Below are positions 49,390-55,174 of a DNA stretch of 64,000 bases, piece by piece. Below the pieces are notes generated by a model. That model was not told the origin of the DNA. It was given only the letters and a program-made list of their open reading frames with translations, and ran no database searches. Positions within the stretch are counted from its first letter, which is position 1, and the number at the start of each line of letters is the position of its first letter. Made by a program: the position numbers and the translations under genes. The stretch is from Streptomyces humicola (GTDB taxonomy: Bacteria; Actinomycetota; Actinomycetes; Streptomycetales; Streptomycetaceae), in NCBI RefSeq assembly GCF_024436035.1, contig NZ_JANFNG010000003.1, forward strand, positions 248,001-312,000, written 5' to 3'.

Positions 49390-49947
49390 ATGACGGTGAT
49401 GGACCAGGGCAACGCCCACGACTTGGTACGCCTGCTGGAAGACATTCCCGAGTTCGACGGCTACAAGATCGAGCTGATCGACGGGAACATCAAGATGCAG
49501 GCCTCGGCGACCCCGATCCACAACTTCATCCAGGCCTCCGTGGCCAGTGCGTTCATCACGCGCGGCTGGTGGTCGTTGACGGAGCAGGCTCTCATCTCGC
49601 AGGTGGCTGGCTTCGAGCCCAAGCCCGACACGGTCGTCACTGCAGCCGGTAAAGCCGACGACAACGCCAACCCATTTCCCGCGGATCGCGTCGAGCTGAT
49701 CGTCGAGATTGTCTCGACCGACAAGGACAGCGACTACATCAAGAAGCGCATGTGGTATGCCAGGAGCGGCATCCCGCTCTACGTTCTGATCGACCCGAAC
49801 GACGGTGTCTGCGAGCTGTACTCAGAGCCCCACGGCGGCGTATACCGGACCACGCGGACGAGCGAGTTCGGCGAGCCCGTGCTCCTGCCGTCCCCCTTCG
49901 ACTTCTCGCTCGACACCACCAGCTTCCGGCTCTACCCCCCGCGTTGA
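49390..49947 (+). CDS. Uma2 family (DUF820) putative endonuclease
   Basis: A 185-residue PD-(D/E)XK-fold protein. Segments YKIELIDGNIKMQASATPIHNFIQ, DRVELIVEIVSTDKDSDYIKKRMWYARSGIPLYVLIDP contain the putative catalytic Glu/Asp and the E-X-V-S / K pattern of Uma2 proteins, which are abundant in Streptomyces and cyanobacteria. ATG 49390 follows GAGGAGG. Real nuclease activity and biological role are unproven for most members. Confidence 0.9.
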   Translation: MTVMDQGNAHDLVRLLEDIPEFDGYKIELIDGNIKMQASATPIHNFIQASVASAFITRGWWSLTEQALISQVAGFEPKPDTVVTAAGKADDNANPFPADRVELIVEIVSTDKDSDYIKKRMWYARSGIPLYVLIDPNDGVCELYSEPHGGVYRTTRTSEFGEPVLLPSPFDFSLDTTSFRLYPPR

Positions 49948-50075
49948 GCCGACCGCATGCCCGTCGTGACGAGCGACGAAGAACACACCGTGACTCCCGC
50001 CTCTTCCTGCTGCGCAGGAGCGTGAACGGGCGTTAAGGTCCGGCCACAAGCGCATTGCGAGAAGTGGGGTGTGTC

Positions 50076-50924
50076 GTGGCGAAGAAGCTCGCCGTCATCG
50101 GGGCGGGGCTCATGGGTTCCGGGATCGCGCAGGTGTCGGCCCAGGCCGGCTACGAAGTGGTACTGCGTGATGTGACCGACGAGGCGCTGGCCCGGGGGAA
50201 GAGCGGTATCGAGGCCTCGTACGGGAAGTTCGTCGCCAAGGGGAAGCTGGAGGCCGAACAGGCCGAGGCGGCGCTCGCGCGGATCACCACGACCACCGAC
50301 CTGGACGCTGCGGCCGACGCAGACATCGTCGTCGAGGCGGTCTTCGAGAAGATCGAGGTCAAGCAGGAGATCTTCCGCGCGCTCGACAAGATCGTGCGCG
50401 AGGAGACGGTGCTCGCCTCCAACACCTCCGCCATCCCGATCACGAAGATCGCCGCAGTGACGGAGCGTCCGGAACGCGTCGTCGGCACGCACTTCTTCTC
50501 GCCGGTCCCGATGATGCAGCTGTGCGAGCTGGTGCGCGGCTACAAGACCGGCGACGAAACGCTCGCTGCGGCGCGCGCGTTCGCCGAGGGTGTCGGCAAG
50601 ACCTGCATCGTCGTCAACCGCGACGTGGCCGGGTTTGTGACGACGCGCCTGATTTCCGCACTCGTCGTCGAGGCGGTCAAGCTCTACGAGTCCGGGGTCG
50701 CCTCCGCCGAGGACATCGACACCGCGTGCAAGCTCGGCTTCGGACACGCGATGGGCCCGCTCGCCACCGCCGATCTGACGGGTGTGGACATCCTGTTGCA
50801 CGCGACCGGGAACATCTACACAGAGTCCCAGGACGAGAAGTTCGCCCCGCCGGAGATCATGCGGCGCATGGTTGATGCAGGGGATATCGGCCGCAAGAGC
50901 GGGCAGGGCTTCTACCGTTACTGA
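50076..50924 (+). CDS. 3-hydroxybutyryl-CoA dehydrogenase
   Basis: A 282-residue NAD(P)-dependent 3-hydroxyacyl-CoA dehydrogenase of the single-function FadB2/Hbd type. The Rossmann motif is VIGAGLMGSGIAQVSAQAG (about 7-25). The catalytic dyad regions are GTHFFSPVPMMQLCELV (His) and VNRDVAGFVTTRLI. GTG 50076 gives the standard N-terminus. An upstream in-frame codon at 50055 is not supported. It acts in butyryl-CoA/polyhydroxybutyrate or beta-oxidation metabolism. Confidence 0.95.
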   Translation: MAKKLAVIGAGLMGSGIAQVSAQAGYEVVLRDVTDEALARGKSGIEASYGKFVAKGKLEAEQAEAALARITTTTDLDAAADADIVVEAVFEKIEVKQEIFRALDKIVREETVLASNTSAIPITKIAAVTERPERVVGTHFFSPVPMMQLCELVRGYKTGDETLAAARAFAEGVGKTCIVVNRDVAGFVTTRLISALVVEAVKLYESGVASAEDIDTACKLGFGHAMGPLATADLTGVDILLHATGNIYTESQDEKFAPPEIMRRMVDAGDIGRKSGQGFYRY

Positions 50925-51104
50925 CAGCCTACGGCGCGTATCACCCGCAAGAGTGAATTGGGTATCGGTTCGCTCACGGACGGCAACGCAAGGGGGCGAC
51001 GGCTCGTCAGTTGCGGTGAGACTGAACGGATTCGTGAACCTACGACTCGCCGGCTCACCGACCGACTGACCGATGACGGGGATCCACATCCATTGGGAGC
51101 ACGC

Positions 51105-51446
51105 ATGCGTATCAAGGGCGACCACGCCGAGCTCGCCGTCGGGGGCCGCCTCGACGTACGGAGCGCGGCGGACGCCCGTACGGTCCTGCACTCCGCGGTC
51201 GACTCCGGCCGCGGAGACCTCGTGCTCGACCTGACCGAACTCGACTCGTGGGACGCCACGGGCCTCGGCGTGATCATGGAAGCGCACCGCCGTGCGGGAC
51301 GGGCCAACCGCAGGCTCGTCCTGCGCGGCGTGCCGCCGCAGATGGAGCGGCTGCTTGTCGCCACCCGCCTGCACCGCATCCTCACCATCGACCGGGGACT
51401 CGGCGTGACGGACGCCCCGGCTGCGCAGACCCTGCCCCGCCGCTGA
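51105..51446 (+). CDS. STAS-domain anti-sigma-factor antagonist-like protein
   Basis: A 113-residue SpoIIAA-type STAS domain. LAVGGRLDVRSAADARTVLHSAV starts the fold, and LDLTELDSWDATGLGVIMEAHRRA carries the regulatory loop. The usual Asp-Ser-Ser-Gly phosphosite reads Asp-Ala-Thr-Gly here, so Thr would be the phosphoacceptor if any. ATG 51105 follows GGGAG by 5 nt. No anti-sigma factor gene is adjacent. Confidence 0.9.
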   Translation: MRIKGDHAELAVGGRLDVRSAADARTVLHSAVDSGRGDLVLDLTELDSWDATGLGVIMEAHRRAGRANRRLVLRGVPPQMERLLVATRLHRILTIDRGLGVTDAPAAQTLPRR

Positions 51447-51585: not shown

Positions 51586-54114
51586 ATGGACCCACACACC
51601 CGAGGACCCGAGGAAGACGCCCCCGGCATGGGGGCCGACGACACCACGCCTATACGACACGTGGAGCAGCCGCCGCAGACGGCCACGGGCGGCGCCGGCC
51701 ACGCGTCCGGTTCACGCACGGCCGGAGCCGCCCGCACCGCACAGGTCGTGGCCGGTGAGTACCTGCTGACGGTCAACCCCGTCGACGGCAGCGAGGTCGA
51801 GCTCTGCCCGCGCGACCGGGTGCCGTCGCCGGAGCGCCGTGACCAGGAGGAGCGCGAGGCGCGCCGCCGCGCCGCTCTCCCCGCGCCCGTGGGCGGTCCG
51901 GCCGGGGTACCCGCCCCCGCCCCGCTGCTCGAACGCACCGAGGAGAGCGATCGCCTGGTGCGGCTGCTGGGCCGCGGCCGTTCCGTGCGCGTGACCGGCC
52001 CGTCCGGTTCGGGCCGCACCGCGCTGCTGTCGCTGACGGCCGAACGCTGCACCGGCCTCGCCCCCGACGGCGTCGTCCGTCTGACCGGCTACCATCGCAC
52101 CCCGGCCGATCTGCTGTACGACCTGTACGCCACCGTCTACCGCACCGAGGGAGCCCGCCCCGACCGCCCGCGGCTGCTGGAGCGGGTCCGCGAGATCGGT
52201 GCCGTCGTCGTCCTGGACGACATCGAGTTCGGCGGGGCGGCCCTGGAGGAATTGCTCGCCGCGGCTGCCGAGTGCGCCTTCCTGATCTCCGCGACCCCCG
52301 ATGTCGCGGCCCCCTCGGCCGACTCGCACATCGAAGAGGTCTTTCTCCCCGGCCTGTCCAAGGCGGCCTGCCTCGAGCTGATGGAACGCACCGCAGGGCG
52401 CCCCCTGGCCGAGGCGGAGACGGCCCTGGCGCAGGACCTGTGGTTCGCCTGTGAGGGGCTGCCGCTGCGCTTCGTGCAGGCGGGCGCGCTGCTGCGCCGC
52501 CGCCACGTACAGCCGCAGCCGCCGGCCGATGACGCATCGCCCTTCGAGGCGACCCTCCCCGGCCGCGCCCCCGAGCCGTTTCCGTCGCTCGCGGAGGCGG
52601 CCGACCCCGCCGCAGTGCTGGCGGCCGGGCTGAGCACCGCCGCCGAGCAGACGCTGCGCTACGCCGTCGCGCTCGGCGGGGACTGCCCGCACCCCTCCCA
52701 TCTGCCCGCCCTGGTCGGCGACACGCACGCCGACGCCGCGCTCGCCGAACTCGTCGGCTGCGGCCTGGTCACGGCGGCCGGCCCGCATTACCGGCTCGCC
52801 GCTGGGATACGGGCACAGCTCGTCGAGAGCGTCCCGGACACCGGAGCCAAGGCCCGTACCGCCGCCGAGCACTACGCCTGGTGGACCGGCCACCCGTCGA
52901 TCGCCGCTGAGCGCATCGGCGCGGAGTCGGACGCCGTGCTCGCCGCCATGGCCGCAGCCAAGAGCTGCGGGCAGCCGGGCGTCGCGGTGCAGCTCGCGCG
53001 GACGGCCGCGCCCGCCTTCGCCGCCGCCCTCAACTGGGGCGCCTGGGAGCGGGCGCTGCGCATCGGACTGGAGTCGGCGCGGCTGGCGGGAGAGGTCGGC
53101 GAAGAGGCCTACTTCCACCACGAACTGGGCGTCCTCGCGCTCTGCTCCGGCAACCCGGAGCGGGCGCGGACCGAGCTCGAAGCGTCGATAGGGATGCGCG
53201 GTGTGCTCGCCGACCGCCAGGGCACCGTGGTGGGCCGGCGTACGCTCGCACTGGTGACGGACCGGCTGGGCGGACTGACGCCGCCGCGTGCTCCGGTGAG
53301 TCCGGCGGTGCCGACGAGCCCGGCAGGCCCGGTGGGCGAGGACGTGCCCGCCGTTCCGGCCATGCCCGTCATCCGCAGCGCGTCGCCGCAGCCGACAGTG
53401 GGACGGCGCATACCGCCGGCCGAGCCGGACGCGGCGGACGTCACCGAGACCGCCGTCACCCCGCTTGTGCCGGCCGACCCGCCGAGCCACCGGGGACGTC
53501 CGGCATCCGCCAGGCGCCGCAACCTGGCGGTGGCCGGGGCGGGCGCGGTGCTCGCCGCCGTCTTCGGCACAGTCGTCACAATCGGCGCGACGTCGGGCAA
53601 CAACGGAGCGCATGCCACGCCCACGGGTGCCGCCCCCTCCGAGTCGGCGCAGCAGACCGACGACAGCAGCGGTCTTCCCGCGGAGCAACCGGCGGGCGCC
53701 AACGGCGCCTCCCACCGCCCGACGGCGCGGGCGAGCGCCTCGCCCAGCGCCTCCTCAAGCCCGTCCGGGAACCCGTCGCCCACGGCCGGCTCCACGGCGC
53801 CGGGCGGTCCCGTCACGAGCGGGCCGCCGTCGCCGCGTCACAGTCGGACGCCGACGCCGACGCCCACGCCGACGACGAGCCGCACCTCGTCGCCGTCCCC
53901 GACGACGTCGCCCACCCCGACACCGACCACGAGCCCCTCCCCGACCCCGACGCAGACCTCGGGCAGCTCTCCGCCGAGCCCCAGCACGTCCCAGACGCCT
54001 ACCGGCAGCCCGTCGAGCAGCGGAAGCACGAGCGCCTCACCCTCCAGCTCGTCCTCGTCTTCCTCGTCTTCCTCGTCTTCCTCGTCTTCCTCGTCCGCCT
54101 CCCCGACCGGCTGA
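51586..54114 (+). CDS. STAND/AAA-type ATPase with TM segment and Ser/Pro/Thr tail
   Basis: An 842-residue membrane-linked ATPase. Residues about 1-110 are disordered with an Arg/Glu-rich stretch. A P-loop domain follows with Walker A VTGPSGSGRTALL (about 140) and Walker B AVVVLDDIEFGG (about 207), then helical winged-helix and TPR-like parts (about 350-570). A single TM helix (about 645-668, LAVAGAGAVLAAVFGTVVTIGA) precedes an extracytoplasmic Ser/Pro/Thr-rich tail ending in a run of about 20 Ser. ATG 51586. Related proteins are conserved in Streptomyces without known function. The topology suggests a cytosolic switch tied to an envelope-exposed stalk. Confidence 0.85.
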   Translation: MDPHTRGPEEDAPGMGADDTTPIRHVEQPPQTATGGAGHASGSRTAGAARTAQVVAGEYLLTVNPVDGSEVELCPRDRVPSPERRDQEEREARRRAALPAPVGGPAGVPAPAPLLERTEESDRLVRLLGRGRSVRVTGPSGSGRTALLSLTAERCTGLAPDGVVRLTGYHRTPADLLYDLYATVYRTEGARPDRPRLLERVREIGAVVVLDDIEFGGAALEELLAAAAECAFLISATPDVAAPSADSHIEEVFLPGLSKAACLELMERTAGRPLAEAETALAQDLWFACEGLPLRFVQAGALLRRRHVQPQPPADDASPFEATLPGRAPEPFPSLAEAADPAAVLAAGLSTAAEQTLRYAVALGGDCPHPSHLPALVGDTHADAALAELVGCGLVTAAGPHYRLAAGIRAQLVESVPDTGAKARTAAEHYAWWTGHPSIAAERIGAESDAVLAAMAAAKSCGQPGVAVQLARTAAPAFAAALNWGAWERALRIGLESARLAGEVGEEAYFHHELGVLALCSGNPERARTELEASIGMRGVLADRQGTVVGRRTLALVTDRLGGLTPPRAPVSPAVPTSPAGPVGEDVPAVPAMPVIRSASPQPTVGRRIPPAEPDAADVTETAVTPLVPADPPSHRGRPASARRRNLAVAGAGAVLAAVFGTVVTIGATSGNNGAHATPTGAAPSESAQQTDDSSGLPAEQPAGANGASHRPTARASASPSASSSPSGNPSPTAGSTAPGGPVTSGPPSPRHSRTPTPTPTPTTSRTSSPSPTTSPTPTPTTSPSPTPTQTSGSSPPSPSTSQTPTGSPSSSGSTSASPSSSSSSSSSSSSSSSSSSASPTG
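54055..54090 (+). repeat. 9-bp microsatellite encoding polyserine
   Basis: TCGTCTTCC is repeated four times exactly, with partial units on both sides, and encodes the serine run at the C-terminus of the STAND-type protein. Confidence 0.9.
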
Positions 54115-54128
54115 CCACACACCACGCA

Positions 54129-54162
54129 GAAGGGCCCGGCGCATCCCCGCGCCGGGCCCTTC
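54129..54162. terminator. Bidirectional terminator
   Basis: A perfect 14-bp stem GAAGGGCCCGGCGC / GCGCCGGGCCCTTC with loop ATCCCC, between the convergent STAND-ATPase and nucS genes. Confidence 0.9.
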
Positions 54163-54188: not shown

Positions 54189-54848
54189 TCAGAACAGGCG
54201 AAGCTTGTCGTCCTCGATGCCGCGCAGGCCGTCGTAGTCCAGGATCGTGCAGGAGATCCCGCGGTCGGTGGCAAGGACGCGTGCCTGCGGCTTGATCTCC
54301 TGGGCCGCGAAGACGCCCTTGACCGGGGCGAGATGGGGATCCCGGTTGAGCAGTTCCAGATAGCGCGTGAGCTGTTCGACGCCGTCGATCTCGCCGCGTC
54401 GCTTGATCTCAACGGCGACCGTCCCGCCGTCCGCGTCGCGGCACAGGATGTCCACCGGGCCGATGGCCGTGGGGTATTCGCGCCGAATCAGCGTCCAGCC
54501 TTCGCCGAGGGTTTCGATGCGGTCCGCCAGGAGTTCCTGCAGATGTGCCTCGACCCCGTCCTTGATCAACCCGGGGTCCACGCCGAGTTCGTGAGAGGAG
54601 TCGTGGAGAACCTCTTCTATGGTGATGATCAGCCGCTCACCCGCCTTGTTCACCACCGTCCACTGGCTGTCCTCCTCCTTGAGAGTGCAGGGCGGCGACA
54701 TCCAGTTGAGCGGTTTGTAGGCGCGGTCGTCCGCATGGATCGACACACTGCCGTCGGCCTTGATCAGGAGAAGTCGCGGTGCCGGGGGCAGGTGGGCGGT
54801 GAGCCGGCCCACATAGTCCACGGAGCAACGAGCAATGACGAGACGCAC
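54189..54848 (-). CDS. nucS: Mismatch-specific endonuclease NucS (EndoMS)
   Basis: A 219-residue nuclease that replaces MutS/MutL in actinobacterial mismatch repair by cutting both strands at G-T, G-G and T-T mispairs. The N-terminal dimerisation/DNA-binding domain starts [16 protein letters not shown]. The C-terminal RecB-like catalytic core has [19 protein letters not shown] and [23 protein letters not shown] (Asp, Glu, Lys). GTG 54848 is chosen to match the usual N-terminus. The longer frame to 54977 is not supported. It is divergent from an SCO5389-type gene, as in other streptomycetes. Confidence 0.95.
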
Positions 54849-55174
54849 GGTCGGCCACGCTACTCGAACCGGGGCGGGATACGCGATTCCCGTTCCGTTC
54901 CGGCGTTCCGACGAGGCCCGTTGATCGCCACCCGGTGTGGCGGGGGATGCGCAGACTGTATGGGACAGGTCACTCATAGGGCCCTAAGCCGGGCACGCGA
55001 GGTTGGCCGGTTGTGCGCGCAAGCTCCTGGTGCGGCCGGGCCTTCGCACCTACCGTTGGAGCCGGGAGTCCGCCGTGCGGGAGTTGGAGCCGAGTCCACG
55101 GCTTCAGGACCGGTGGCTTCCCTCCGTTGTCCGTGAGGCCCCGGGCCCGGCTCGGGGTCGCGAGAGGAGTACCC

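Follow-up and report, generated by a model that had tools for sequence, protein, structure and literature searches.

A STAND-fold protein with a conserved membrane helix

The window analyzed here is a 64,000-nucleotide stretch of the Streptomyces humicola genome (NCBI RefSeq assembly GCF_024436035.1, contig NZ_JANFNG010000003.1, positions 248,001 to 312,000, forward strand), which contains a gene for a protein of 842 amino acids with a STAND-fold core, a transmembrane helix and a tail rich in proline, serine and threonine (P/S/T-rich) that is predicted to lie outside the cytoplasm. A sequence-only reading of this DNA had described the product as a STAND-type ATPase tied to the membrane, with an exposed tail ending in a polyserine run, and this architecture of STAND module, membrane segment and Ser-rich tail is real, being seen in the translation, in a structural model and in the homologues. 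The ATG of the gene lies at 51586 and its stop codon at 54112-54114, in agreement with the coordinates of that reading; the open reading frame (ORF) listed by a program opens farther upstream, at GTG 51466. Since ATG 51586 was aligned in all ten sequences compared (window included) and GGGGGCGGA is found just 5' of it in seven of the ten, 51586 is likely to be the true start codon. The gene has the following parts:

51586..54114, + strand: gene for the single-pass membrane STAND protein, 842 amino acids (translation; start backed by alignment)
51733..51798, + strand: conserved motif near the N-terminus (residues 50-71), which reads RTAQVVAGEYLLTVNPVDGSEV in the window
51997..52020, + strand: P-loop GPSGSGRT, residues 138-145, Arg replacing the Walker A Lys
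52204..52221, + strand: Walker B VVVLDD, residues 207-212
52456..52467, + strand: GLPL motif, residues 291-294
52573..53265, + strand: winged-helix-like and TPR-like helical part, residues 330-560 (AlphaFold2 model and structure matches; limits are our reading of the model)
53266..53517, + strand: unconserved linker, residues 561-644 (mean consensus 0.30 over 561-640)
53518..53592, + strand: conserved transmembrane helix, residues 645-669
53593..54111, + strand: P/S/T-rich, Cys-free tail, predicted to be extracytoplasmic, residues 670-842
54043..54096, + strand: run of 18 Ser, residues 820-837
54052..54095, + strand: 9-bp tandem repeat TCCTCGTCT, 4.9 perfect copies

The conserved core of the protein spans residues 50-566. 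An AlphaFold2 model of the core, built from 58 sequences, reached a predicted local distance difference test score (pLDDT) of 93.2 and a predicted TM-score (pTM) of 0.92, and its top Foldseek matches were a STAND-TPR protein (6mfv, 8.8e-8) and Apaf-1 (3sfz, 1.8e-7). In VIA-align comparisons the model was superposed on 6mfv (Z 18.1, 382 aligned, root mean square deviation (rmsd) 10.1), NRC1 (8bv0; Z 17.6, 285 aligned, rmsd 3.4), Apaf-1 (3sfz; Z 16.8, 405 aligned, rmsd 4.7), a maltose-system entry (8bob; Z 14.8, 354 aligned, rmsd 4.3) and ADP-bound Apaf-1 (1z6t; Z 13.9, 410 aligned, rmsd 4.7). Model and matches agree on an Apaf-1-related nucleotide-binding oligomerization domain (NOD) fold with a winged-helix domain, as in the STAND superfamily, so that, as modeled, this is a STAND-fold protein and the earlier STAND assignment stands. 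No Pfam or NCBIfam cut-off was reached by the window protein (AAA_16, 19.1 vs 32.6 bits; NB-ARC, 10.8 vs 23.5 bits); among the 58 aligned members, AAA_16 matched with E<=0.01 in 53, and a TPR_12 match was seen in 2. Weak matches of the window protein to the NCBIfam families HaaT and GvpN, far under cut-off, were rejected. When the family alignment was run as a profile against PDB sequences, the matches were weak (best E 0.11) and for the most part limited to the P-loop; a single-sequence search of PDB sequences gave no match at E<=1.

The nucleotide site was compared in 128 homologues dereplicated from 168 ORFs, a set that still includes the distant non-orthologue L153. The position of the Walker A Lys is occupied by Arg in 126 of them, by Gly in one (L164) and by Lys in L153 only. 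Because the Walker A pattern GxxxxGK[ST] of the STAND superfamily is missing, we assign the protein no further than to the STAND fold and describe its P-loop as degenerate. The Walker B pattern hhhhD[DE] is present, with D211 and an Asp or Glu at position 212 in 128/128, and so is the GxP element, with G291 and P293 in 128/128 and GLPL as a whole nearly invariant. Where four aligned relatives show SRE/GRE, the homologues read ATPD or similar. In view of the Arg in 126 of 128 homologues the earlier term "ATPase" is doubtful, and these residues suggest that ATPase activity is impaired. Arg-bearing NB-ARC-type STANDs of the same genome were observed at L210 and L211 (GPTGSGRS and GRPGSGRT).

The membrane helix was assessed in 168 full-length homologues (window included), which correspond to 150 distinct cores, many genomes being represented twice; the counts for helix, charge and tail exclude the distant relatives L153 and L154 as well as incomplete ORFs. 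In every homologue the helix is the most hydrophobic 19-residue segment from the N-terminal region of the protein up to the helix itself (1.84-2.62), and in every one it is free of charged residues and of Asn, Gln and His. As a control, the next-best segment exceeded 1.5 in 89/168 and 1.6 in 53/168; a hydrophobicity above 1.5 alone is thus unspecific, since the next-best segment passes this value so often, and the next-best segments above threshold contain polar or charged residues in all but one case. Net charge averages +4.2 before the helix and -1.6 after it, the inner flank being the more positive in 168/168, and a topology with the N-terminus inside, the C-terminus outside and the tail exported is predicted. 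Mean consensus amounts to 0.83 in the helix, 0.74 in the core, 0.30 in the linker and 0.34 in the tail, and at R645, G661, T662 and V664 at least 94% of sequences agree with the consensus. By this measure conservation of the helix matches that of the core, while linker and tail are not conserved to this degree. The earlier proposal of a membrane tie is therefore strengthened by a conserved single helix with predicted N-in/C-out topology, and absence of the helix in homologues, which had been named as an observation that would count against it, did not occur in any of the 168.

The tails of the homologues comprise 122-243 amino acids, with a median Ser, Thr and Pro fraction of 0.54 and without Cys in 168/168. 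Differing lineage-specific repeats were seen in several of 17 tails inspected. A P/S/T-rich, Cys-free stalk, as the sequence comparison has it, is accordingly conserved in kind, by composition, and not in sequence, in line with the Ser/Thr-rich tail described earlier. The polyserine run itself fared differently when repeat numbers were compared, as had been suggested: the longest Ser run counts 18 in the window protein vs no more than 8 in any of the 167 other tails, so that the run is private to this strain and was rejected as a conserved functional element. It had been called microsatellite-coded; the run is repeat-coded, but the unit is 9 bp, which makes it a tandem repeat and not a 1-6 bp microsatellite. 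TCT accounts for 4 of the 18 codons in the run vs 1 of the 68 preceding Ser codons, an excess expected from duplication of the 9-bp unit. A 23-base pattern from the TCCTCGTCT array, with up to two mismatches, had no match elsewhere in the 7.07-Mb genome. A pattern of seven AGC codons was also tried and had no match in the genome; it is irrelevant here since the Ser run is coded by a 9-bp TCN unit. A conserved juxtamembrane tail motif is not claimed, as a loose pattern occurred in just 34/168. O-mannosylation of the tail, which the sequence-only reading named as a point to check, is possible.

A family-wide locus and distant membrane relatives

The core without its low-complexity tail, used as query, matched in 148 of 150 Streptomycetaceae genomes (own genome included) representing 17 of 17 genera, with a single match at E<=1 in the own genome. 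The two genomes without a match, even with a profile, were G037, an assembly of 1650 contigs with 7% contamination, and G137, which is 71% complete. In an order-level sample, which overlaps with the 150-genome set, 131 of 132 genomes of the same family matched, the miss (G200) showing a weak second match besides a fragment that lies at the end of a contig; 3 of 15 genomes of other families matched weakly, as did 7 genomes outside the family in a class-level sample. The gene is thus an unnamed, vertically kept, family-wide core gene of Streptomycetaceae. A divergent second copy (L174, G127:C45; 50% identity) was observed without matches to the usual neighbors, which are the following in the window:

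50055..50924, + strand: 3-hydroxyacyl-CoA dehydrogenase gene, conserved neighbor
50958..51446, + strand: STAS-domain protein upstream of the STAND gene, with an uncertain start codon and with WDATGLG in the phosphosite loop (Pfam STAS_2 1.9e-15)
54129..54162, no strand assigned: GC-rich, terminator-like hairpin between the convergent genes (54115-54190 fold, -41.0 kcal/mol)
54189..54860, - strand: convergent nucS gene (PRK03298 endonuclease NucS 4.7e-123)

The conserved order is dehydrogenase, STAS, STAND gene and convergent nucS. Of 172 loci, a redundant set in which many loci are short, 169 have the STAS gene on the strand of the STAND gene, 160 have the dehydrogenase gene and 157 have nucS on the other strand. 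The nucS gene is a conserved convergent neighbor for which we draw no functional link. According to the available part of PMC5290159, NucS is SCO5388 in Streptomyces coelicolor, which together with the conserved order suggests that SCO5387 is the orthologue of the STAND gene. A literature search on SCO5387, its neighbors and related topics, with subscription papers, preprints and supplements outside its scope, found no title or abstract start on this protein; likewise, no SCO53xx number was found in the main text of a glycoproteome paper (PMC6593405), the part of that source available. The hairpin was not listed by a consensus scan, and a sigma-70 consensus scan found no promoter; in an alignment of 10 upstream regions, most show a TTTAgGGTTCGGTT-like stretch. 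Farther out, a putative endonuclease of the Uma2 family is encoded upstream of the dehydrogenase gene (49390-49947, + strand).

The STAS protein reads WDATGLG where SpoIIAA reads MDSSGLG. The first Ser of the latter motif is, as we take it, the phosphosite Ser58. At this position 168 of 169 STAS orthologues have Ala and one has Thr, and the neighboring STAS protein thus lacks the Ser or Thr that follows Asp directly in SpoIIAA-type proteins. Synteny, and synteny only, suggests that the STAS and STAND proteins form a pair.

The search for related loci covered the best 80 of 398 candidates. Of the weak matches, a part was examined, in 11 regions with 12 proteins. Of these 12 distant or divergent proteins, 10 (L220-L228, two in L228), from streptomycetes and other actinomycetes, combine a STAND core, a strong transmembrane helix and a C-terminal outer part, as does the window protein (24-36% identity, helix hydrophobicity 1.83-2.67, 125-488 amino acids beyond the helix). 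At the position of the residue 50-71 motif several of them have a G-x-x-N-x-V-V...GSTV-like stretch related to that of the window protein. Unlike the window family, they have Lys at the Walker A position in 9 of 10 (Arg in one) and Cys-containing outer parts in all 10 (2-11 Cys; at L223 the frame crosses a run of N, which makes outer length and Cys count uncertain), and no STAS, NucS or dehydrogenase match was found in the 8-12 kb around them. They look like a class of actinomycete single-pass STAND proteins whose members differ in their outer parts. The window protein is predicted to share with single-pass STAND receptors the core, the one helix and the C-terminus outside, while a Cys-containing ectodomain is replaced by low-complexity P/S/T tails with 0 Cys in 168/168. 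The outer parts of L220-L222 have four invariant Cys in common, and an AlphaFold2 model of this ectodomain from the 3 sequences (pLDDT 73) is beta-rich with avidin-like matches (best E 1.6e-3), a suggestive likeness as far as the model goes. L230 resembles a soluble STAND. The orthologues and L229 form one clade with a support of 0.998. A truncated, Arg-bearing second copy without the transmembrane helix was observed at L229:2612-5785. The simplest history would be a STAND receptor with membrane helix and sensor from which both the sensor and the Walker A Lys were lost in the lineage of the streptomycetes.

A putative envelope-linked platform and its alternatives

We consider it plausible, with a probability of roughly 0.45, that the protein is a degenerate membrane STAND receptor serving as a stalk-bearing, envelope-linked signaling platform, perhaps together with the STAS protein; a signaling role is made plausible by the fold and by the likeness to the ectodomain-bearing relatives. 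The ancestor would have been a single-pass STAND receptor as in the distant relatives, with a Lys P-loop and a Cys-containing ectodomain, and a wall-spanning stalk would have taken the place of the sensor domain on the way to the streptomycetes. Replacement of Lys by Arg would have rendered the nucleotide site slow or non-hydrolyzing, so that the protein might act as a nucleotide-bound, membrane-fixed platform and not as a cycling ATPase. The conserved helix may pack with itself or with a membrane partner, and the cytosolic face may bind the STAS protein encoded just upstream. Given Ala at the position of the phosphorylated Ser of SpoIIAA, this contact would be controlled by the nucleotide or envelope state and not by a kinase of the SpoIIAB type. 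The polyserine run would represent a neutral repeat-expansion variant of the stalk.

Several observations weigh against this interpretation. Foldseek TM-scores of the top matches were just 0.37-0.43 with an rmsd of 11-15, and in the model the match to whole STAND proteins is domain-wise, with the same domains in different arrangements. Arg at the Walker A position is not unique, since 2 of 8 NB-ARC-type places of the own genome have Arg and 6 Lys; to judge from these motifs, Arg-type P-loops may recur in streptomycete STANDs, and Arg may still permit nucleotide binding or slow hydrolysis. In the STAS protein the residue after the Ala is a Thr (157 of 169 orthologues read WDATGLG), which might, by its position, be phosphorylated instead. 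Furthermore, among 12 STAS places of the own genome, compared by eye and with three not resolved by pattern, DST/DSS stands in 3 further places, DATG in 2 further ones, whose frames span 591 and 610 amino acids, and DPAG or DCCG in others; Ala at this site is thus not exceptional. The STAS and STAND genes are separated by a 139-bp gap with a stretch conserved in most aligned upstream regions, so that separate transcription is possible, and contact between the products is conjectural. NucS matches are missing at L035, L085, L089, L164 and L170, all longer than 8 kb, where the conserved order is possibly broken. The topology of the 10 relatives is partly backed by charge, the inner flank being more positive in 8 and equal in 2, and the polarity assumed here, from Lys to Arg and towards loss of the ectodomain, is drawn from a small tree with an arbitrary outgroup. 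Finally, no biochemical or genetic data on the protein were found.

Among the alternatives, a working STAND ATP switch, in which Arg stands in for Lys and ADP/ATP cycling proceeds as in AfsR or MalT while wall tension or ligands, sensed by the stalk, lead to oligomerization at the membrane, appears somewhat unlikely. It would account for the retention of the Walker B acidic residues and GLPL in nearly all homologues and for a fold that aligns over 410 residues with ADP-bound Apaf-1, and the streptomycete STAND AfsR shows slow ATPase activity and ATP-dependent activation in the part of PMC10936776 available; but the Walker A Lys is missing in 127 of 128 homologues, L164 has Gly at its place, and the ATPD stretch offers no Arg where four relatives read SRE/GRE. 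It is improbable that the protein is a structural tether, that is, a STAND fold relic whose P/S/T stalk, possibly O-mannosylated, joins the membrane to peptidoglycan while the TPR part scaffolds other proteins. The degenerate P-loop, the conserved helix and a tail conserved in composition but not in sequence are consistent with a tether, whereas the Walker B and GLPL stretches (e.g. WFESEGLPLRFVQA) are among the most conserved parts and would be needless for a mere scaffold. Very improbable is a membrane-anchored antiphage or conflict-system STAND, a bacterial NLR: Apaf-1, plant NLRs and Avs3 are among the fold matches, and the available part of PMC7159879 reports STAND-bearing conflict systems in multicellular bacteria, but a gene that 148 of 150 genomes of a single family carry, at one fixed locus, is unlike patchy defense genes, PADLOC defense models gave 0 families at E<=1, and no further Pfam domain was found in the window protein. 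A protein that lies in the cytosol as a whole, tail included, with the hydrophobic segment buried, is hardly credible: other core segments are fairly hydrophobic too (>1.6 in 53/168), but the helix is the most hydrophobic segment, free of charged residues, Asn, Gln and His, with a charge step across it in 168/168, and the core is modeled as a complete fold without it.

In the preferred reading, that of a degenerate membrane STAND with a phosphosite-lacking STAS protein, STAND biology would extend from soluble switches to membrane receptors, and a testable envelope-signaling component would be at hand in antibiotic producers, encoded by a gene that occurs at a largely fixed locus across the family and yet lies under every Pfam and NCBIfam cut-off. 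A wider proposal, that actinomycetes possess undescribed membrane-spanning, NLR-like STAND receptors with exchangeable ectodomains, of which the degenerate, stalked streptomycete member and its STAS protein form a core envelope-linked signaling platform, is rather doubtful.

Comparison with known STAND and STAS systems

STAND-TPR NTPases, such as 6mfv and the NOD-TPR part of AfsR, share with the window protein the order and fold of NOD, winged-helix and TPR-like parts as well as the Walker B and GLPL motifs. MalT is likewise a STAND NTPase with a TPR sensor. Unlike the STAND-TPR NTPases, the window protein has Arg at the Walker A Lys, a C-terminal membrane helix and an outer tail, and a DNA-binding domain was not found in it. 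Similarly, Apaf-1, CED-4 and the plant NLR NB-ARC proteins have an NB-ARC-like core fold in common with the window protein, with 11-19% sequence identity in the aligned rows. In contrast to these proteins, no CARD, coiled-coil (CC) or TIR domain was found in the window protein, which is membrane-anchored.

A catalytically degenerate STAND domain, as in the window protein, is also described for the iSTAND proteins of MoxR-vWA ternary systems in the available part of PMC7159879; the membrane tail sets the window protein apart from them, as does the lack of a MoxR or vWA domain in the six neighboring proteins scanned. With regard to the putative STAS partner, the part of PMC7367683 available describes MlaB as a STAS protein that binds the P-loop NTPase MlaF, and here, too, a STAS protein is encoded beside a P-loop-type protein. 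However, MlaF is an ABC ATPase, unlike the window protein, whose partnership with the STAS protein is a conjecture from gene order.

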